Made by a program: the position numbers and the translations under genes
In this document: positions 3,281 to 60,407 of the stretch, one piece after another
Layout: each line of letters begins with the position of its first letter
How positions within the stretch are numbered: the first letter of the stretch is position 1
Notes under the pieces: generated by a model
Told to the model about the DNA's origin: nothing
Seen by the model: the letters and a program-made list of their open reading frames with translations, nothing else
Databases searched by the model: none
From: Desulfofundulus kuznetsovii DSM 6115
GTDB taxonomy: Bacteria; Bacillota; Desulfotomaculia; Desulfotomaculales; Desulfovirgulaceae
Length of the DNA stretch: 64,000 nt
Direction of reading: 5' to 3'
Assembly (NCBI RefSeq): GCF_000214705.1
Contig: NC_015573.1
Coordinates: forward strand, 260,501 to 324,500

Positions 3281-4684
3281 ATGCCCGTTGTTTACGGTGG
3301 TATCTGCCCGCACCCCCCGATCATGGTCCCCGAGGTGGGCGGGGCGGAGGCGGACAGGGTTATTTCCACCCGGCAGGCCATGCTGGAACTGGGCCGCCGG
3401 GTGAAGGAAAGCGGGGCCGATACGCTGGTGGTGATTTCCCCCCACGGCCCGGTCTTCCGGGACGGCATCGCCATCCTGGCGGCTCAAGAGGTGCGGGGTG
3501 ACCTGGGCCGGTTTGGCGCCCGCCGGGTAAGCTTCAAGGTGGAAAACGACCCGGCCCTGGTGCGGGAAATAGCGGCCCGGGCCGGGGAACCGGGCATAAC
3601 CGTCCTGCAGGTGGATGAAAAAACGGCCCGGCGCTACGGTCTGGACCTGGAACTGGACCACGGGACCATGGTGCCCCTTTACTTCCTGCGCGCGGCGGGT
3701 GTGAACCTGCCCCTGGTGCCGGTGGCCATGGGGCTTTTGCCTTACCGCCAGCTCTACGCCTTCGGCATGGCCGTGGCCGGGGCGGCGGAGAAGCTGGGGA
3801 AAAAGGTGGCCGTTCTGGCCAGCGGCGACCTGTCCCACCGCCTGACCCCGGACGCGCCGGCCGGTTACGATCCCCGGGGCCGGGAGTTCGACCGGGAAAT
3901 CGCCCGGCTGGTGGCGGCTGCCGACATCGAGGGAATTTTGAACCTGGACGCCGGGCTGGTGGAGCGGGCCGGGGAATGCGGCCTGCGGCCCATTATCATG
4001 GCCTTCGGCGCCTTTGACGGGCTGGCTGTAGAGGCGGAGGTTCTTTCTTACGAAGGGCCGTTTGGCGTGGGTTACATGGTGGCCTCCCTTGCTCCCGGAG
4101 AACCGGATCCCCGGAGGCGGATATGGGAAAAATTAAGCGCGGCGGAACAAAAGGCCCGGGAAGAACGTCTACGTAATGAAAGCTTTCTCGTGCGGGTGGC
4201 CCGGCGCTCCCTGGAAAACTACTTTGCCGGGCGGTCCCGGCTTTACGATGAAACGGGCATCCCGCCGGAGTTTGCCCGCCGGGCCGGTGCCTTTGTTTCC
4301 CTCCACAAGCACGGCCAGCTGCGGGGGTGTATCGGCACCGTCACACCCCAGTACAAGCATATTGTGGAAGAGGTGGCCATGAACGCCATCAGCGCCGCCG
4401 TGCGGGACCCCCGGTTTTACCCGGTTACGGAAGATGAACTGCCGGACCTGGAAATCTCCGTGGACGTGCTCCAGGAGCCGGAACCGGTGGAGAGCATGGC
4501 CGGCCTGGATCCCAAAAAATACGGCGTCATTGTGCAGGCGGGCGGCCGGCAGGGGTTGCTCCTGCCCGACCTGGAAGGCATAGATACGGCCGAACAGCAG
4601 GTGGCCATCGCCCGGCGGAAGGCGGGCATCGGCCCCCATGAGCCCGTCAAGCTCATGCGCTTTGAAGTGAAAAGGTATCACTGA
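3281..4684 (+). CDS. AmmeMemoRadiSam system protein, MEMO-like (B) and AMMECR1 (A) domains fused
   Basis: A 467-residue fusion. Residues 1 to about 265 are MEMO1-like with the class III extradiol dioxygenase (LigB) fold: ICPHPPIMVPEVGG at the N-terminus, VVISPHGPVF near 55, SGDLSHRLTPD near 185. Residues from about 290 to the end are AMMECR1, with its hallmark LRGCIGT near 346 and FVSLHKHGQ before it. In many genomes these are two proteins (A and B); here they are one polypeptide in B-A order. ATG 3281 follows GAGGTGG. The radical SAM member lies downstream across a repeat element. The three families co-occur in bacteria and archaea, but the reaction is not established to my knowledge. Confidence 0.92.
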   Translation: MPVVYGGICPHPPIMVPEVGGAEADRVISTRQAMLELGRRVKESGADTLVVISPHGPVFRDGIAILAAQEVRGDLGRFGARRVSFKVENDPALVREIAARAGEPGITVLQVDEKTARRYGLDLELDHGTMVPLYFLRAAGVNLPLVPVAMGLLPYRQLYAFGMAVAGAAEKLGKKVAVLASGDLSHRLTPDAPAGYDPRGREFDREIARLVAAADIEGILNLDAGLVERAGECGLRPIIMAFGAFDGLAVEAEVLSYEGPFGVGYMVASLAPGEPDPRRRIWEKLSAAEQKAREERLRNESFLVRVARRSLENYFAGRSRLYDETGIPPEFARRAGAFVSLHKHGQLRGCIGTVTPQYKHIVEEVAMNAISAAVRDPRFYPVTEDELPDLEISVDVLQEPEPVESMAGLDPKKYGVIVQAGGRQGLLLPDLEGIDTAEQQVAIARRKAGIGPHEPVKLMRFEVKRYH

Positions 4685-4702
4685 AGGTGGGGTAAGGGTA
4701 AG

Positions 4703-5003
4703 TATTCAGTAAACCCGGTTGGATGCGGCGCTGTCCCCGCTCACTCCAGTGCTTCGCGCCGACAGCACCGCGGCTCGCTTCGGACCGGACTAGCGGTGCT
4801 GCAAAGGCGGCACGGTATGTGTGTACTGTTTTGTTACTCTGTTTTTACAGTTACTTTTGTTGATATTAAGCAATGTTTGGGTGCCGCTGGTTTCGCACCG
4901 CAGTCCGGTTACCCTCGCTTCGCCGGGTGCAGTTACCGGCGCTTCGCAAGTCGTTCGCTCCGGACAGCGCCGCATCCCTGTCACAACGGTTTTACTGGAT
5001 GTT
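4703..5003 (+). repeat. MITE-like inverted-repeat element, copy A
   Basis: About 301 bp. The left end reads TATTCAGTAAACCCGGTTGG followed by ATGCGGCGCTGTCC. The right end, read on the other strand, gives ATCCAGTAAAACCG and again GGATGCGGCGCTGTCC. The interior holds further inverted segments (ACAGCACCGCGGCTCGCTTC; CCGGTTACCCTCGCTTCGCC). Related copies lie at 52788, 54586 and 59987. It fills the gap between the MEMO/AMMECR1 gene and its radical SAM partner and ends 21 nt before that start, so upstream in-frame extensions of the radical SAM gene are repeat sequence rather than protein. Confidence 0.82.
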
Positions 5004-5024
5004 TGCGGTAAGGGGGGATTATGC

Positions 5025-6023
5025 GTGCAGGAGGCGCTTTTTTACGAAAAAGGGGACGGCGGCCGCACTTTTTGCCGCCTCTGCCCCAGGCTCTGCAGCA
5101 TCAGGGACGGCCATACCGGCTTTTGCCGGGTGCGCAAAAACCAGCAGGGCATCCTGTATACCCTCAATTACGGCCGGGTTTCCTCTTACGCCCTGGATCC
5201 GATTGAAAAAAAGCCCCTTTACCACTTCTACCCGGGCAGCGATATTCTTTCCCTGGGCAGCGTGGGCTGCAACCTGCGCTGCGGCTTCTGCCAGAACTGG
5301 CAGATTGCCCACGCCGACCCCCATACCCTCTATTTGAGCCCGGCCCAGGCCGTGGCCGCGGCCAGGGAGCAAATCGCCCGGGGCTACCCCAACGTGGGCC
5401 TGGCCTATACCTATAACGAGCCTTTCATGTGGTACGAGTACGTTTACGATACGGCCCGCCTGGCCCACCAGGAGGGTTTGAAGAACGTGCTGGTTACCAA
5501 CGGATACGTCAATGAAGAACCCCTGCGGCAGATCCTGCCCTACATCGACGCCATGAATATTGACGTGAAGGGCTTTACTGATGAATATTACCGCGGGACG
5601 TGCGCCGGCCACCTGGAACCGGTGCTGCGTGCGGTGGAGATCGCCCACGGGCACTGCCACGTGGAGCTGACCACCCTGCTGGTTCCCGGCTTAAACGATT
5701 CGGAAGAGGAGATCCGCCGCCTGGTGGACTGGGTGGCCGGGCTCGACCCGGATATACCCCTGCACTTTTCCCGCTATTTCCCCAATTATAAGTTTGACCT
5801 GCCGCCCACGCCCCTGGAGACTTTGCAAAAAGCCTGGCAGATAGCCCTGGAAAAGCTCCGCTACGTCTACATCGGCAACGCCCCGGAGCTGGGCGGCAGT
5901 GACACCCTCTGCCCGGCCTGCGGCGAAACCCTCATCCGCCGCACCGGCTACAGGGTGCAGGTGCGTGGACTGGAAGGGAACCGGTGCCGTTACTGCGGGG
6001 CGGAAGTGAAGGTTGTGGTGTGA
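5025..6023 (+). CDS. AmmeMemoRadiSam system radical SAM enzyme
   Basis: A 332-residue radical SAM protein of the family formerly called pyruvate-formate-lyase-activating-enzyme-like. GTG 5025 is chosen because AGGGGGG lies 7 nt upstream; upstream in-frame starts are inside a repeat. A Cys-rich N-terminus (CRLCPRLC, then GHTGFCRVR) precedes the cluster motif GCNLRCGFCQNW (CxxxCxxC, about residues 82-89). NVGLAYTYNEPFMWYEYV and VTNGYVNEEPLR are typical of the family. A C-terminal CPACG...CRYCG pair suggests a zinc ribbon or extra Fe-S site. It pairs with the MEMO/AMMECR1 fusion upstream; the substrate is unknown. Confidence 0.93.
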   Translation: MQEALFYEKGDGGRTFCRLCPRLCSIRDGHTGFCRVRKNQQGILYTLNYGRVSSYALDPIEKKPLYHFYPGSDILSLGSVGCNLRCGFCQNWQIAHADPHTLYLSPAQAVAAAREQIARGYPNVGLAYTYNEPFMWYEYVYDTARLAHQEGLKNVLVTNGYVNEEPLRQILPYIDAMNIDVKGFTDEYYRGTCAGHLEPVLRAVEIAHGHCHVELTTLLVPGLNDSEEEIRRLVDWVAGLDPDIPLHFSRYFPNYKFDLPPTPLETLQKAWQIALEKLRYVYIGNAPELGGSDTLCPACGETLIRRTGYRVQVRGLEGNRCRYCGAEVKVVV

Positions 6024-6024
6024 A

Positions 6025-7308
6025 ATGCAAAAATTACCTGATTACGAAAAAGTATTACTTATAACCCTTCAACTGCCCCATGAGGATGAACGTGAAGTTG
6101 AGGAGTCCCTGGACGAGCTGGCCCGGCTGGCGGACACGGCCGGGGCCCGGGTGGTGGGCAGGGTGGTACAGCGCGCCCGCCGGCCGGACCCGGCCACCTT
6201 TCTGGGGCGGGGCAAGGTGCGCGAGGAAATAGCTCCCGCCTGCCGGGAACTGGGGGTTGACCTGGTCATCTGCGACCATGAGCTTTCCCCCGCCCAGGTG
6301 CGCAACCTGGAGGAGGAACTGGGGGTACGGGTTATCGACCGCACCCAGCTCATCCTGGACATCTTTGCCCGGCGGGCCCGTACCCGGGAGGGCAAGCTGC
6401 AGGTAGAACTGGCCCAACTGGAATACCTCTACCCCCGGCTGGCGGGGAAAGGAACCGAGCTTTCCCGGCTGGGGGGCGGCATTGGCACCCGGGGGCCCGG
6501 CGAAACGAAGCTGGAAACCGACCGTCGGCGCATAAAAAGGCGCATCACCGAGTTGCGCCGGGAGCTCGACGAAGTACGGCGGCACCGGACCCTGCTGCGC
6601 ACCAGGCGGCAGGATGTGCCCGTAACCCTGGTCAGCCTGGTGGGGTATACCAACGCCGGCAAGTCCACCCTCCTCAATGCCCTCACGGGGGCAGGCGTCC
6701 CGGCCGAAGACAAATTGTTTGCCACCCTGGACCCCACCACCCGGCGCCTCGTGCTGCCAAACAATGATGTGGTGCTGCTTACTGATACGGTCGGTTTCAT
6801 CCGCCGCCTGCCCCACCACCTGGTGGCCGCCTTCCGGGCCACCCTGGAGGAAGTGACGGAAGCGGACCTGCTCCTGCACGTGGTGGACGTGAGCAACCCG
6901 GATTACCCGGACCAGGTTAAAGCGGTGGAGGATGTGCTGGCCTCCCTGGGGGCGGGGGAGAAGCCCGCCATTCTGGTTTTCAATAAAGTTGACCGTTTGA
7001 CTGCTGAAGAACCCTGGCTGCTTCCGTCGGGCAGGCCGGCGGTGGCGGTTTCCGCTCTGACGGGTCAGGGCCTGGATGAACTGCGCCGGCTCATCATGGA
7101 AGTCTTGAGGGATCAAAGGGTGCGGCGGGAGTTCCTGGTGCCCTACCAGCGGGGAGACGTGCTCAACCTGCTCTACGAAAAAGGGGAGGTATTGTCGCGG
7201 GAATATACCCCGGAGGGCGTGCGCCTGGAAGTGGAACTGGGTGCGGTGTGGGCCTCCCGGGCGGCGGCCCGGCTGGGGAAGGATAATCCCGGCAGAATTT
7301 CCGGGTAA
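6025..7308 (+). CDS. hflX: GTPase HflX
   Basis: Ribosome-associated GTPase that rescues or splits stalled 70S ribosomes. About 427 residues. The N-terminal glycine-rich linker region (LSRLGGGIGTRGPGETKLE) and coiled segment are typical. The GTPase domain shows G1 GYTNAGKSTLL near 206, DPTTR, G3 DTVGFIRRLPHHLV and G4 NKVD. ATG 6025 begins 1 nt after the previous stop; an in-frame TTG at 6013 would overlap that gene. The close spacing suggests translational coupling to the radical SAM gene. The stop lies inside a 9-bp hairpin. Confidence 0.95.
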   Translation: MQKLPDYEKVLLITLQLPHEDEREVEESLDELARLADTAGARVVGRVVQRARRPDPATFLGRGKVREEIAPACRELGVDLVICDHELSPAQVRNLEEELGVRVIDRTQLILDIFARRARTREGKLQVELAQLEYLYPRLAGKGTELSRLGGGIGTRGPGETKLETDRRRIKRRITELRRELDEVRRHRTLLRTRRQDVPVTLVSLVGYTNAGKSTLLNALTGAGVPAEDKLFATLDPTTRRLVLPNNDVVLLTDTVGFIRRLPHHLVAAFRATLEEVTEADLLLHVVDVSNPDYPDQVKAVEDVLASLGAGEKPAILVFNKVDRLTAEEPWLLPSGRPAVAVSALTGQGLDELRRLIMEVLRDQRVRREFLVPYQRGDVLNLLYEKGEVLSREYTPEGVRLEVELGAVWASRAAARLGKDNPGRISG

Positions 7309-7315
7309 TTCTGCC
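7291..7315. terminator. Hairpin between convergent genes
   Basis: A perfect 9-bp stem GGCAGAATT / AATTCTGCC encloses a 7-nt loop. It overlaps the hflX stop codon and touches the end of the convergent gene. There is no strong U-tract on either side, so termination efficiency is uncertain. Confidence 0.45.
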
Positions 7316-7845
7316 TAAAGTCTCCCGGCGGCCGGCCGGGCGCCTGCCGGGAAGGGGGCGTACTCCTGAACCACATGTTCGTGCTTTGTCAACCACTTTT
7401 CCAGGTTGAACCGGCGGCGCACCAGGGGTGCGGGTATGTGAAAGGCATCTGCCACTTCATGAATCTTCTGGAATTTCGTCCCTGCACTGCCCGTTCCCGG
7501 GGGCAGCAGGAGGAGGGCGGCAAAATCTTCGGCGGCGTTTTCTTCTTCCCCTCTCCCGGTCAACCCGTCCACGTATATGCCGCTGGTGACATTCAGGCAG
7601 TGCTGGCCCAGGCCGTAGGCCAGCATGTGCTTCAGTTCCGGCCTGGTAAGCCCCTTTTTCACCGTGAGCAGCGCGATGCCGTCCCCCGTGCGCACGTATC
7701 TTGCCCTGACCCGGCCTTTAAACGGGAAGCGGGTCAGGATGATCCCTTCGCTCCTGGCTATCCTGTACAGCTGGTAAACACCCGGCGGCCCCTCGAGACG
7801 GTACTTCTTGATCAGGGCCAGGGCCAGCCGGACGGCTGAACTCAA
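7315..7845 (-). CDS. ImmA/IrrE-like protein with degenerate metalloprotease motif
   Basis: A 176-residue protein resembling ImmA/IrrE (DUF955) metallopeptidases, which cleave or regulate Xre repressors. The family helix normally reads LAHELGH; here it is LAYGLGQHC (about residues 75-83), so the first His and the catalytic Glu are replaced. The second conserved stretch, ENAAEDFAALLLLP, matches the family ExxANxFAxxLLMP. TTG 7845 is chosen because GGAGGGG lies 5 nt upstream; an ATG at 7872 has no good site. An Xre regulator lies upstream on the same strand, the usual partner arrangement. It is probably a pseudo-protease or ligand-binding regulator. Confidence 0.62.
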   Translation of the reverse strand: MSSAVRLALALIKKYRLEGPPGVYQLYRIARSEGIILTRFPFKGRVRARYVRTGDGIALLTVKKGLTRPELKHMLAYGLGQHCLNVTSGIYVDGLTGRGEEENAAEDFAALLLLPPGTGSAGTKFQKIHEVADAFHIPAPLVRRRFNLEKWLTKHEHVVQEYAPFPAGARPAAGRL

Positions 7846-9086: not shown

Positions 9087-10736
9087 ATGAAGTCGAAATT
9101 GCTGGCAGTAACCCTGGTGTTCTGCCTGCTTCTGGCCCTGGCCGGTGCGGCCTATGCCGGTTTTTCCGATCTGAACGGCCACTGGGCGCAGAAACAGGTG
9201 GAAAAATGGGCGGATAAGGGCCTGGTTGGCGGCTACCAGGACGGCACCTTCCGGCCGAATAAAGCCGTGACCAGAGCCGAATTCGTTGCCCTGGTAAACA
9301 GGGCCATGAACAAGCAGAATACCGGCGCAGCAGTCAATTTCAAAGATGTCAGGGCCGGTGACTGGTTTTACCGTGAGGTTGCCGCGGCCGTGAGCGCCGG
9401 CTATGTGGGCGGCTATGAAGACGGGACCTTCCGGCCGAACCAGCCCATCACCCGCCAGGAAGCCGCCTCCATCATCAGCCGTCTTTTGAACCTGGGGAGC
9501 GGCGAGGCAAGCGTACTGGGCAAATTTAAAGATGCCGGTCGAATCGGCAGCTGGGCCCGGGGCAGCGTGGCCGCTGTGGTGGCCAGAGGCCTGATGGGCG
9601 GCTACTCCGACGGCACCTTTGGGCCGGCCAGGTCCATCACCCGGGCGGAAACCGTGGTGGTTCTTGACCGGGCCATCACCGGAGAAACTCCGCAGCCGCC
9701 GGGGGGAGAAGTGAAGGTTACCGGGGTAAAGCTGGATAGGAATACGCTGAGCCTCAGCGTGGGCTCCACGGTACAGCTGAAGGCCACCGTTATCCCGGAC
9801 AACGCCACCAATAAGGAAGTGACCTGGTCCACCAGCGACGAGAAGATCGCTACCGTGGATGACCAGGGCAACGTTAAAGGCGTGGCTGAAGGCAAGGCTA
9901 CCATCACTGTCACCACCGCGGACGGCAATTTTAAGGATACCTGCGAAGTGACCGTAGTGCGCACCAGCGGTAGCGGTGGCGGTGGTGGCGGCGGTGGGTC
10001 GACCACCATACCCGTTACCGGCGTAACCCTTGATAAGACCAGCCTGACCATGACCGTCGGTGAAAGTGTCCAGCTGACGGCCACCGTGTCACCGGGCAAC
10101 GCTACCAATAAAAAGGTTACCTGGAGCAGCAGTAACACCGCCGTGGCCACGGTGGACGACACCGGCAGGGTGACCGCAGTGGCGGCCGGCACGGCCAACA
10201 TCACCGTTAAAACCGAAGACGGCGGCAAGACGGCCACCTGCGTGGTGACGGTTAATCCGGCACCGCCCGTATCAGCTCTGCCCGTAGAGATTAAATCCTA
10301 CGTGACCCTGACCGACCCCCTGGGCAACACCGTGGTGGTGGCCGAGATCAAGCCGGAGTATGCCGACCAGGTCGATACGGTCACGGTAAAGGGCCAGGTG
10401 ATGAACCGGCGCCCCGGCACCAATGAGTGGCAGAAGACCCTGGAAGGCAGCGTCACCGTGGTGGACGCCGACTTTAAGGTTACCCTGAAGCCGGCGGTGG
10501 ATGTGATTGAGAAAGCCGATGCCGGTTTGGGGTTGTTCGGCGATACCAACGTATATGTATGGCTCAAAAGCGGGGTGACTGCCACCAGCGTCACCGCCAA
10601 CGGTCAGCCCATGACCTTGAGCGGCGACTTTTACAAGGTCACTCTCTGGGGGCTGAATAAGGGCGACACGGTAACGGTGAAGGTAACCACGGCTCAGGAC
10701 GTACAGACCCGGGATGTTACCGTGCGGGAACTTTAA
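9087..10736 (+). CDS. Secreted S-layer-homology protein with two Big_2 domains
   Basis: 549 residues. The signal peptide (LLAVTLVFCLLLALAG, cleavage near AYA) is followed by three SLH domains (about 26-80, 86-145, 148-200), each with GYxDGTFxPxxxITRxE; these anchor proteins to pyruvylated cell-wall polymer. Two Big_2 Ig-like domains (about 208-290 and 308-385; VTGVxLD, TVTP/IPDNATNK, VTWSS) are separated by a poly-Gly linker (SGSGGGGGGGGS). The C-terminal ~140 residues hold two modules also seen in the next protein: EIKPEYADQVDTVTVKGQ and LFGDTNVYVWLKSGVTATSV. The gene is probably co-transcribed with the next (23-nt gap). Confidence 0.92.
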   Translation: MKSKLLAVTLVFCLLLALAGAAYAGFSDLNGHWAQKQVEKWADKGLVGGYQDGTFRPNKAVTRAEFVALVNRAMNKQNTGAAVNFKDVRAGDWFYREVAAAVSAGYVGGYEDGTFRPNQPITRQEAASIISRLLNLGSGEASVLGKFKDAGRIGSWARGSVAAVVARGLMGGYSDGTFGPARSITRAETVVVLDRAITGETPQPPGGEVKVTGVKLDRNTLSLSVGSTVQLKATVIPDNATNKEVTWSTSDEKIATVDDQGNVKGVAEGKATITVTTADGNFKDTCEVTVVRTSGSGGGGGGGGSTTIPVTGVTLDKTSLTMTVGESVQLTATVSPGNATNKKVTWSSSNTAVATVDDTGRVTAVAAGTANITVKTEDGGKTATCVVTVNPAPPVSALPVEIKSYVTLTDPLGNTVVVAEIKPEYADQVDTVTVKGQVMNRRPGTNEWQKTLEGSVTVVDADFKVTLKPAVDVIEKADAGLGLFGDTNVYVWLKSGVTATSVTANGQPMTLSGDFYKVTLWGLNKGDTVTVKVTTAQDVQTRDVTVREL

Positions 10737-10759: not shown

Positions 10760-11914
10760 ATGAACGCTAAAAAAGCGCTGCGCGTTCTGGCATTGACCCT
10801 GGCGCTGGTGTTCATGTTCAGCGCCGTGGCGTTCGCAGCAACTCCCAGTATCATTTTCTATCAAAATGCCGCAGGCCAGATAGTGCAGGTGGACTATCAG
10901 AAGGCTATGGACCAGGCTGCGGCCGGGAATACCGCCCTGCTGCAGGAACTGAAGAGGGCCTATATTGACGCCCAGGACAATTTCCGGCCCATTGTGGTAA
11001 AAAACGACGACGGCTCGGTGGTTGACTGGAGCAAGGCCTTGAAGGACAAAAAGCCCTACCAGCAGGTGGTGGCCGACGATAATTACAAAGGAACCGAACC
11101 CAGGCCCGATGTGGAACTGGTGGTTGATGAAACCGGCAAAGCGGTGGAAAAACCCGTAGCCAAACCGTGGCCCGCTGAAATGGAAGGGCTGCCGCTGATC
11201 AGCTACAGCGACCTTACCCAGAAGACCTACGCCACCATCACCATCAAGGCCGAGTATGTGGATAAGGTAACGGCTGTGACCATTGCAGGTAAAGCGGCGG
11301 TGCAGCAGCCTGACAGGAGCAAGTGGCGCGCGGAAGTGCCCGCCGGCACCACTGCGGAATCCCTGGCCGGCAAGATCGTCATCACCGTGCAGGAACCTCC
11401 CGCTCCCGGCCAGTGGCCTGAGCAGATGGAAGGGCTGCCGCTGATCAGCTACAGCGACCTTACCCAGAAGACCTACGCCACCATCACCATCAAGGCCGAG
11501 TATGTGGATAAGGTAACGGCCGTGACCATCGCGGGTAAGGCGGCGGTGCAGCAGCCCGACAGGAGCAAGTGGCGTGCGGAAGTGCCCGCCGGCACCACTG
11601 CGGAATCCCTGGCCGGCAAGATCGTCATCACCGTGCAGGAACCTCCCGCTCCCGGCCCTGTGGAGGCCATCAAGGAAATACGCGCCAAACTGGACCTGTT
11701 TGGCCAGACCCGCGTTTGGGTGTTCCTTAATGAAGGCGTTGAAGCTGCTTCCGTCACCGCCAACGGCCAGGCCCTGCAGTATAATGCAGTGGATCAGAGA
11801 TGGGAAGGCGTTTTGGACAACCTGAAGGTGGGAGACCCCGTTAAGGTCGTGGTCACCACCACCGGCGGCAGCAACGACGAAGGCACCGCAACAGTGGTTG
11901 CCATGGGTTCTTAA
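10760..11914 (+). CDS. Secreted protein with duplicated 82-residue module
   Basis: 384 residues; GGGGAGAG precedes ATG 10760. A signal peptide ends near AVAFAA. The N-terminal domain (QIVQVDYQKAMDQAA ... PRPDVELVVDE) is shared with the 1007-residue protein downstream. Two almost identical 82-residue modules follow (LPLISYSDLTQKTYATITIK, AEYVDKVTAVTIAGKAAVQQ), encoded by the direct repeat at 11168-11659. The C-terminal module (LFGQTRVWVFLNEGVEAASV) matches the end of the SLH protein upstream. No catalytic motif is recognisable. I infer a cell-surface structural or matrix protein; the family is not one I recognise. Confidence 0.8.
   Translation: MNAKKALRVLALTLALVFMFSAVAFAATPSIIFYQNAAGQIVQVDYQKAMDQAAAGNTALLQELKRAYIDAQDNFRPIVVKNDDGSVVDWSKALKDKKPYQQVVADDNYKGTEPRPDVELVVDETGKAVEKPVAKPWPAEMEGLPLISYSDLTQKTYATITIKAEYVDKVTAVTIAGKAAVQQPDRSKWRAEVPAGTTAESLAGKIVITVQEPPAPGQWPEQMEGLPLISYSDLTQKTYATITIKAEYVDKVTAVTIAGKAAVQQPDRSKWRAEVPAGTTAESLAGKIVITVQEPPAPGPVEAIKEIRAKLDLFGQTRVWVFLNEGVEAASVTANGQALQYNAVDQRWEGVLDNLKVGDPVKVVVTTTGGSNDEGTATVVAMGS
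11168..11659 (+). repeat. Tandem 246-bp in-gene duplication
   Basis: Two copies with a 246-bp period (11168-11413 and 11414-11659) differ at only a few positions by eye, for example TGGCCCGCTGAAATGG versus TGGCCTGAGCAGATGG. The period is a multiple of three, so the frame is kept and 82 residues are duplicated. The near identity suggests recent duplication or continuing gene conversion. Confidence 0.9.
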
Positions 11915-52390: not shown

Positions 52391-52786
52391 ATGTGCAGAA
52401 ATCACGGTCCCGGCCACCGGCACGGCGACTGCCGGTGTGCCGGGGCTCCTATGGAGCGGTTTATGCAGCCGTGCCTTTTGCTTTTGCTTCACCGTCGTTC
52501 GGCCCACGGTTACGAACTGATGCAAAGCTTGAGGGAGTTTGGCTTCCATGACAGTGAGGCCGACCCGGGTACGGTTTACCGTAACCTGCGTCGCCTGGAA
52601 GAGGAGGGCCTGGTTTCTTCCCGGTGGGACACCAGCGGTGGCGGTCCGGCCAGGCGCCTGTACCGTTTAACTCCGGAAGGGGAGGAACTGCTCCATGCCT
52701 GGGCGGAAGCAATAACACACAACAAAAGGCGGCTGGAATATTTTCTGGCCAGGTACCGGGAGGAGTTTGCGCAAAGTAAATATTAA
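52391..52786 (+). CDS. PadR-family regulator with His/Cys-rich N-terminus
   Basis: 131 residues; GAGGGAT lies just before ATG 52391. It begins MCRNHGPGHRHGDCRCAGAP, a 20-residue His/Cys cluster, then the PadR core MQPCLLLLLHRRSAHGYELM, DPGTVYRNLRRLEEEGLVSS and RLYRLTPEGEELLHAW. It is a paralogue of the 37658 protein. The cluster could bind a metal or metalloid and make this a metal-responsive PadR. It follows the split permease genes and is followed at once by a MITE copy. Confidence 0.85.
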   Translation: MCRNHGPGHRHGDCRCAGAPMERFMQPCLLLLLHRRSAHGYELMQSLREFGFHDSEADPGTVYRNLRRLEEEGLVSSRWDTSGGGPARRLYRLTPEGEELLHAWAEAITHNKRRLEYFLARYREEFAQSKY

Positions 52787-52787
52787 A

Positions 52788-53082
52788 TATTCAGTAAGCC
52801 GTTGTGACAAGGATGCGGCGCTGTCCGGAGCGAACGACTTGCGAAGCGCCGGTAACAGCACCCGGTGAAGCGAGGCCGCCGGCTCGGCTCTCGAGGACGC
52901 AAGAACAACTAATCGAAAGAAAAGTTGGAAACACATTAGTTTAAGAACTTTACAACGAAGCGCAATTAGTCACGGGCAATCCGCAGAGAGCCAGAGCCGG
53001 CCCGAAGCGAGCCGCGGTGCTGTCGGCGCGGAGCACTGGAGTGAGCGAGGAGAGCACCGCATCCAACCGGGTTCACTGAATA
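52788..53082 (-). repeat. MITE-like inverted-repeat element, copy B (inverted relative to A)
   Basis: 295 bp from TATTCAGTAAGCCGTTGTGA to CCGGGTTCACTGAATA. It matches the reverse complement of copy A at both ends (GGATGCGGCGCTGTCCGGAG; GCCGCGGTGCTGTCGGCGCG), with a unique AT-richer centre near 52900-52975. It begins 2 nt after the padR stop codon. The remaining 53083-53263 gap before hcp holds no gene I recognise. Confidence 0.82.
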
Positions 53083-53263
53083 ATTAATTACTGTGCAAAG
53101 ATGACACGTTCGCAGCCGGGATGCGGTTCTTCAGGTGAAGGATGGGTCCCGGGATGGTCTTGGTAACATAAAGGCCCCAGCCGGTGTCCATAAACCGGCG
53201 GGACCTTTATCCATGGCCTTATTACTGCAACAGCAAGTCGTTTTAACGAGCCGGATGCGATTA

Positions 53264-54547: not shown

Positions 54548-54585
54548 GTACTTTTCACCCTCCTTGAGAATTTTTTTGCTATAAA

Positions 54586-54887
54586 TGTTCAGTGATCCCG
54601 CTACGGTGCCGCGTTGTCCACGCTCACTCCGGTGCTCCGCGCTGACAGCACCGCGGCTCGCTTCGGACCGGACTAGCGGCGCTGCAAATGCGGCATGACA
54701 GTCGTACCTTACTATAATCTTTTTACCGTTATAGTAGGTTACCTTATTCTTAAGCTACATTTCGGTGCCGCTGGTTTCGCGCCGCAGTCCGGTTACCCTC
54801 GCTTCGCCGGGTGCTGTTACCAGCGCTCCGCAAGTCGCTCGCTTTGGACAACGCGGCACCTGCCGGTGGTAGCGGTTTTGCTGAACA
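54586..54887 (+). repeat. MITE-like inverted-repeat element, copy C
   Basis: 302 bp from TGTTCAGTGATCCCGC to GCGGTTTTGCTGAACA, in the orientation of copy A. The shared interior includes CGCGGCTCGCTTCGGACCGG and GGTTACCCTCGCTTCGCC. It lies in the gap between divergent hcp and helicase genes. The remaining 54888-55088 is AT-rich at first and holds no recognised gene. Confidence 0.82.
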
Positions 54888-59913: not shown

Positions 59914-59986
59914 CATGGGCGATGGTTCGTTCGCGACGAGAGAAGAGCGCTGCGAAAAGGTGCGGCAGGATTTGGCAACAGGTAAA

Positions 59987-60233
59987 TATTCAGTAAAACC
60001 GTTATGACGAGGATGCGGCGCTGTCCGGAGCGAACGACGCAGCACACGCCGTTAACAGCACCCGGTGAACCCAGCACTCACCGGCAAAGATGATCATTCC
60101 AGGGCAAATGCAAAAGGCAGTAGAAAATTTGGCCTTCGCAGAATGGCTTACTCAGTGATTGCTGGACGGCCCGAAGCGAGCCGCGGTGCTGTCGGCGCGT
60201 GACAGCGCCGCATCCAACCGGGTTCACTGAATA
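59987..60233 (-). repeat. MITE-like inverted-repeat element, copy D
   Basis: 247 bp in the orientation of copy B. The outer ends are the clearest of the four: GTAAATATTCAGT-type sequence on both sides (left GGTAAATATTCAGT, right ACTGAATATTTACGG). The interior is shortened and contains CCCAGCACTCACCGG, a piece of the other hairpin family, at 60066. It fills most of the 494-bp gap before the thiolase. Confidence 0.82.
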
Positions 60234-60407
60234 TTTACGGTTATTAAAACTTTAAGGGCCGGGCGAATGAAGAAAACCCTGCCCGTTTTTTTTCTTCCTG
60301 GTACTGTTGTTGCATGAATTTTTAGAATTAAAATACTGGTGCAAAAACCGCCCGGCGGGCGAATAAACCGTATTTGGGGGAGTAATAACGAGGGGGAGTT
60401 GAAGAAT

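Follow-up and report, generated by a model that had tools for sequence, protein, structure and literature searches.

A probable Bacillota form of the AmmeMemoRadiSam system: a MEMO-like/AMMECR1 fusion gene beside a radical SAM gene

A fusion gene, a radical SAM gene and the insert between them

The 64,000-nucleotide stretch of Desulfofundulus kuznetsovii DSM 6115 DNA that we analysed (the window) carries a gene for a 467-residue fusion protein followed on the same strand by a radical SAM gene, with a short insert separating the two:

3281..4684, + strand: fusion gene, 467 aa, ATG start; identified by Pfam and NCBIfam matches, invariant residues, predicted structure and fold matches
3281..4105, + strand: LigB/MEMO-like domain (residues 1-275), the N-terminal part of the fusion
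4181..4681, + strand: AMMECR1 domain (residues 301-467), the C-terminal part of the fusion
4691..4698, no strand: left-hand 8-bp target duplication GGTAAGGG, present once at the empty site in G231
4699..5006, no strand: MITE-like insertion of 308 bp with imperfect inverted ends; identified by its multiple copies, the empty site in the congener G231 and the inverted repeats
5007..5014, no strand: right-hand 8-bp target duplication GGTAAGGG, shortly ahead of the radical SAM start codon; present once at the empty site in G231
5025..6023, + strand: radical SAM gene, AmmeMemoRadiSam (TIGR04337), 332 aa, GTG start; identified by NCBIfam, Pfam and conserved cysteines

Pfam and NCBIfam searches bore out the original prediction of a 467-residue MEMO-like/AMMECR1 fusion beside a radical SAM gene, including its coordinates. 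Pfam assigned residues 9-267 of the fusion to LigB (PF02900; 154.5 bits, cut-off 26.3) and residues 304-465 to AMMECR1 (PF01871; 161.5 bits), and the protein passed the NCBIfam cut-offs of TIGR04335 (141.7 bits, cut-off 99) and TIGR04336 (37.2 bits, cut-off 26). The predicted structure of the fusion (pLDDT 94, pTM 0.83) has helices that join the LigB-like and AMMECR1 domains, and its fold matches included TK2203, extradiol dioxygenases, MEMO1 and AMMECR1 proteins.

The 332-residue product of the downstream gene scored 337.7 bits against TIGR04337, above the cut-off of 220, and matched Radical_SAM (PF04055) at 86.5 bits; its predicted structure had a pLDDT of 97. The CX3CX2C motif corresponds to C82/C86/C89, which were invariant among aligned relatives, and there are additional conserved four-cysteine sites near the N terminus (C17/C20/C24/C34) and the C terminus (C296/C299/C321/C324). 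By both sequence and fold, the closest solved relative is pyruvate formate-lyase activating enzyme, with which the protein shares the radical SAM core, but it differs in its extra four-cysteine sites and falls far below the cut-off of the PFLA equivalog model (53.9 bits, cut-off 231.75). NCBIfam has already named the system to which these genes belong AmmeMemoRadiSam: as in that system, all three models (TIGR04335, TIGR04336 and TIGR04337) pass their cut-offs and the genes are adjacent, whereas here two components reside in one protein and the B component is weak (37 bits) and LigB-like by Pfam, as is usual in the phylum. Elsewhere in the survey described below, one genome (G048) carries two extra copies of the radical SAM gene (L118 and L119) without LigB or AMMECR1 genes nearby. 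A candidate natural radical SAM-AMMECR1 fusion in a 735-codon open frame of another genome (G130) was rejected, as the two matches lie in different frames.

The mobile repeat that had been proposed to lie between the two genes proved to be real. It is a 308-bp MITE-like insert with an 8-bp duplication and an empty site: the octamer GGTAAGGG occurs once, with no insert, in the congener G231, and the same insertion is found in the congener G252. As a query, the insert region gave 72 matches in the window's genome, which was searched as one contig of 3,601,386 bp, and many of these consist of two conserved ends of approximately 90 bp around a variable middle. The element thus has the features of a MITE, being short and multicopy with inverted ends and a target-site duplication. 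The right duplication restores a purine-rich stretch ahead of the GTG start of the radical SAM gene. The strand of the insert folds strongly (z -4.4), and a simple pattern search found no promoter-like or terminator-like match inside it. Further MITE-like copies lie in the window at 52785-53086, 54582-54883 and 59984-60238, and MITE-like pieces lie directly downstream of rpsI elsewhere in the genome (L150, G000:C1:3035000-3046000, about 6690-7360). The spot downstream of rpsI is the place of the fusion gene in many relatives. We dropped the idea that the MITE drove the gene pair away from the rpsI site, because the LysE neighbour is shared by G252, which carries the insert, and because in G231 the pair lacks both the insert and an adjacent rpsI.

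Distribution of the fusion and its radical SAM partner

The fusion is the ordinary, usual architecture in Bacillota. About 140 of the 150 AMMECR1 matches listed in the phylum sit in open frames of at least 430 codons, the length of a fusion, and among 54 aligned loci, the window included, 46 were fused and 8 were split. The split loci carry separate genes side by side that keep the order LigB, AMMECR1, radical SAM. This order, on one strand, was found in 30 of the best 30 loci of the AMMECR1 survey. In 53 loci, AMMECR1 and the radical SAM gene are usually less than 60 bp apart and often overlap; one outlying spacing of -221 reflects the choice of start codon.

The surveys covered 299 Bacillota genomes and 100 genomes of the archaeal phylum that contains Methanosarcina, about 400 in total. 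AMMECR1 was present in 230 of the 299 Bacillota genomes, and a radical SAM protein above the TIGR04337 cut-off was found in 222 of these 230, as opposed to 0 of the 69 AMMECR1-negative genomes (Fisher p 3e-59, with relatedness ignored). Comparison of the tables for the radical SAM model showed that 44 of the 69 negative genomes have sub-cut-off matches alone and 25 have none. The original prediction had named rare co-occurrence of the domains as a result that would speak against it, and the survey did not show this.

Of the 100 archaeal genomes, 84 had Memo, 86 the radical SAM gene and 98 AMMECR1. Memo and the radical SAM gene were both present in 84 genomes and both absent from 14, and only two genomes had the radical SAM gene alone (n=100; Fisher p 3e-15, with relatedness ignored). 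In most of these archaea the two genes lie kilobases apart or on separate contigs, so linkage cannot account for their agreement. Haloarchaea-like genomes retain AMMECR1 without Memo or the radical SAM enzyme. Eight AMMECR1-positive Bacillota genomes have no radical SAM match above the cut-off, one of them being G161, which looks finished and has its fusion intact; this indicates that the fusion can be kept alone. Because the genes are kept or lost together across the surveyed genomes, the domains of the fusion and the radical SAM enzyme very probably share one job. The proposal that the MEMO-like and AMMECR1 domains act jointly, with the radical SAM enzyme as partner, is thus supported by the constant gene order and by tight co-occurrence in two phyla.

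Metal-site residues and AMMECR1 motifs

In the N-terminal domain, H11, H55 and C233, which lie at putative metal-ligand positions, are invariant in 54 of 54 aligned loci. D183 and H186 are also invariant, and E232, directly before C233, is conserved in 50 of the 54. In a profile alignment with archaeal Memo, ECGLRPI of the fusion pairs with the motif VCGYGPI and C233 coincides with the Memo cysteine, and E232 aligns with the glutamate region of the dioxygenases, adjoining the invariant C233. Human MEMO1 binds iron through H49, H81 and C244, and dioxygenases have a glutamate at the position of the cysteine (PMC11081632). These alignments suggest that the family carries both candidate metal ligands, glutamate and cysteine, in adjacent positions.

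The Memo model (PF01875) had no match in the window protein or its genome, but several fused orthologues score above its cut-off. Few genomes of the phylum have a separate canonical Memo gene, with 3 clear cases among 61. Seven other Memo matches in these genomes are weak, and those in G001, G002, G036, G038 and G053 lie inside the fusion gene, beside the AMMECR1 match. With few separate Memo genes and with Memo matches inside the fusion, the LigB-like domain appears, as judged from sequence, to take the place of Memo in Bacillota. The label 'MEMO' therefore holds for the Memo-type active-site pattern H11/H55/C233 but not for the family assignment, as Pfam calls the domain LigB and finds no PF01875 match.

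The domain resembles human MEMO1 and archaeal Memo in its fold and its His-His-Cys metal-ligand pattern, and differs from them in the missing PF01875 match, the conserved glutamate before the cysteine and the fusion to AMMECR1. To our knowledge, humans have no radical SAM partner. With the class III extradiol dioxygenases of the LigB family (PF02900) and TK2203, it shares the sequence profile, the fold and the two histidine ligand positions, but the window family has an invariant cysteine next to the glutamate position and is tied to a radical SAM gene. The fold ranking for this domain was led by TK2203, followed by aminophenol and dihydroxyphenylacetate dioxygenases, with MEMO1 lower.

In the AMMECR1 domain, LRGC-G, DPRF and K447 are invariant across the aligned Bacillota loci. 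In thirteen archaeal genomes with neither Memo nor the radical SAM enzyme, AMMECR1 is retained in a diverged form (E-values 1e-35 to 1e-42; L137-L149). Against a comparison set of 20 archaeal and 54 Bacillota sequences, the PRF of DPRF is changed to SCG in 13 of 13; the 13 genomes probably form a single clade, presumably haloarchaea, and the change may thus be one event. I351, L426 and L428 are likewise changed in all 13, and LRGC-G, E386 and K447 are kept. The pattern points to a role of DPRF in the joint function with Memo and the radical SAM enzyme. The partnerless proteins also have GW-YP where others have GLLLP. AMMECR1 occurs in 429 of 524 archaeal genomes and has been listed as a top-priority unknown (PMC6393860).

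Readings of the joint function

We favour, at a probability of roughly 0.6, the reading that the locus encodes the Bacillota form of AmmeMemoRadiSam, where the fusion and its radical SAM partner serve one pathway and share a substrate, probably as parts of a complex, although a common pathway does not require one. In this reading, the radical SAM enzyme would abstract a hydrogen with a SAM-derived radical. The product would then be processed at a metal site, probably Fe2+, held by H11, H55 and C233 and/or E232, with H127, D183 and H186 as putative acid/base residues nearby. The AMMECR1 domain, with LRGC-G, DPRF and K447, may partner the MEMO-like site, either in substrate binding or as a second catalytic group. 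Gene order, fusion, co-occurrence and invariant residues were observed directly; we infer the identity of the metal, the order of the steps and the formation of a complex, and family membership suggests the radical step and the metal chemistry (Pfam; PMC11081632).

The radical SAM protein could instead be an activase that modifies the fusion, for example at the GPFGVGY strand (residues 259-265), which would make the fusion the catalyst. Its closest solved relatives, by sequence and fold, are the pyruvate formate-lyase activating enzymes, and YEGPFGVGY is nearly invariant in the 54 aligned loci; archaeal Memo also has VGY, and human MEMO1, which is not known to us to have such an enzyme, has VSY. 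Yet the score against the PFLA model is far below the cut-off, aminophenol dioxygenase has the same glycine (GTG), suggesting a structural role, and the Pfam search found no glycyl radical enzyme match for the fusion, and we judge this role improbable. We give still less credence, to the point of near dismissal, to an N-terminal domain that is an O2-dependent extradiol dioxygenase of aromatic breakdown and a chance neighbour of the radical SAM gene. Such an identity would fit the LigB call, the dihydroxyphenylacetate and aminophenol dioxygenases among the closest solved folds and the alignment of E232 with the dioxygenase glutamate. It does not fit the invariant Cys233 at the Memo ligand position, the Memo model passing on several orthologues where separate Memo genes are so rare, or the tight tie to the radical SAM gene.

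Upstream of 55 Bacillota loci, on the same strand, we found cwlD in 26, rpsI in 24, rplM in 23 and truA in 22, and downstream argC in 19 and cdaA in 12 (the rpsI, rplM, truA, cwlD, arg, cdaA and glm names were read from their sequences; Pfam was used to check the LysE, HflX, arginase, MGMT, M20, M29 and symporter neighbours). Four archaeal Memo loci are preceded by genes read as L18e, L13, S9, rpoN/K and S2 and are followed by apparent mevalonate kinase, IPP kinase and fni genes. In the window, a LysE-type transporter gene and hflX flank the pair, and rpsI lies elsewhere in the genome, at position 3,042,446. The system could modify part of the translation machinery, whether tRNA, rRNA or a ribosomal protein, a possibility that we hold tentatively and with more doubt than belief. 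The position of the triple downstream of truA-rplM-rpsI in 22-24 of the 55 Bacillota loci, that of Memo after L13-S9-rpoN/K-S2 in the four archaeal loci, hflX directly 3' in the window and a reported link between archaeal AMMECR1 and a protein with PIN and Zn-ribbon domains (PMC6393860) all point that way. However, ribosomal operons serve as ancient anchors around which unrelated genes gather; the neighbours also include arg, cdaA-glmM, cwlD and mevalonate-pathway genes, and the Pfam search found no RNA-binding domain. An unlikely extension would have a metalloenzyme made of the Glu-Cys MEMO-like and AMMECR1 domains with the radical SAM enzyme act on a translation component conserved from bacteria to archaea, with eukaryotic MEMO1 and AMMECR1 as a remnant without the radical step.

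A 2020 paper that cites Burroughs et al. 2019 mentions 'recently-described Memo-Ammecr1 systems' with a related radical SAM domain (PMC7159879). Human MEMO1 is described as a protein whose primary molecular function is unknown (PMC11081632). In the literature we found no functional study of the bacterial system and no earlier description of the Glu-Cys pair, the co-loss figures or the DPRF change. The invariant metal-site residues, the co-loss with the radical SAM gene and the disappearance of DPRF along with Memo point to particular residues and deletions to test, in bacteria that hold all parts of the system in two adjacent genes. Burroughs et al., in 2019 work on the PCAD-Memo superfamily, reportedly proposed modification of a nucleotide base or an isoprenoid.

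Several other features of the window were noted. The hflX gene (ribosome-associated GTPase family; 6025-7308) has its ATG one base past the radical SAM stop, so the two genes are probably translated from one transcript. A c-di-GMP-II riboswitch candidate at 930-1011 was rejected as a chance match (25.7 bits, gathering threshold 53.5). Two adjacent ORFs, at 9087-10736 and 10760-11914, look secreted; by eye, the first has S-layer-homology-like and Ig-like repeats, and the second contains an internal duplicated segment.
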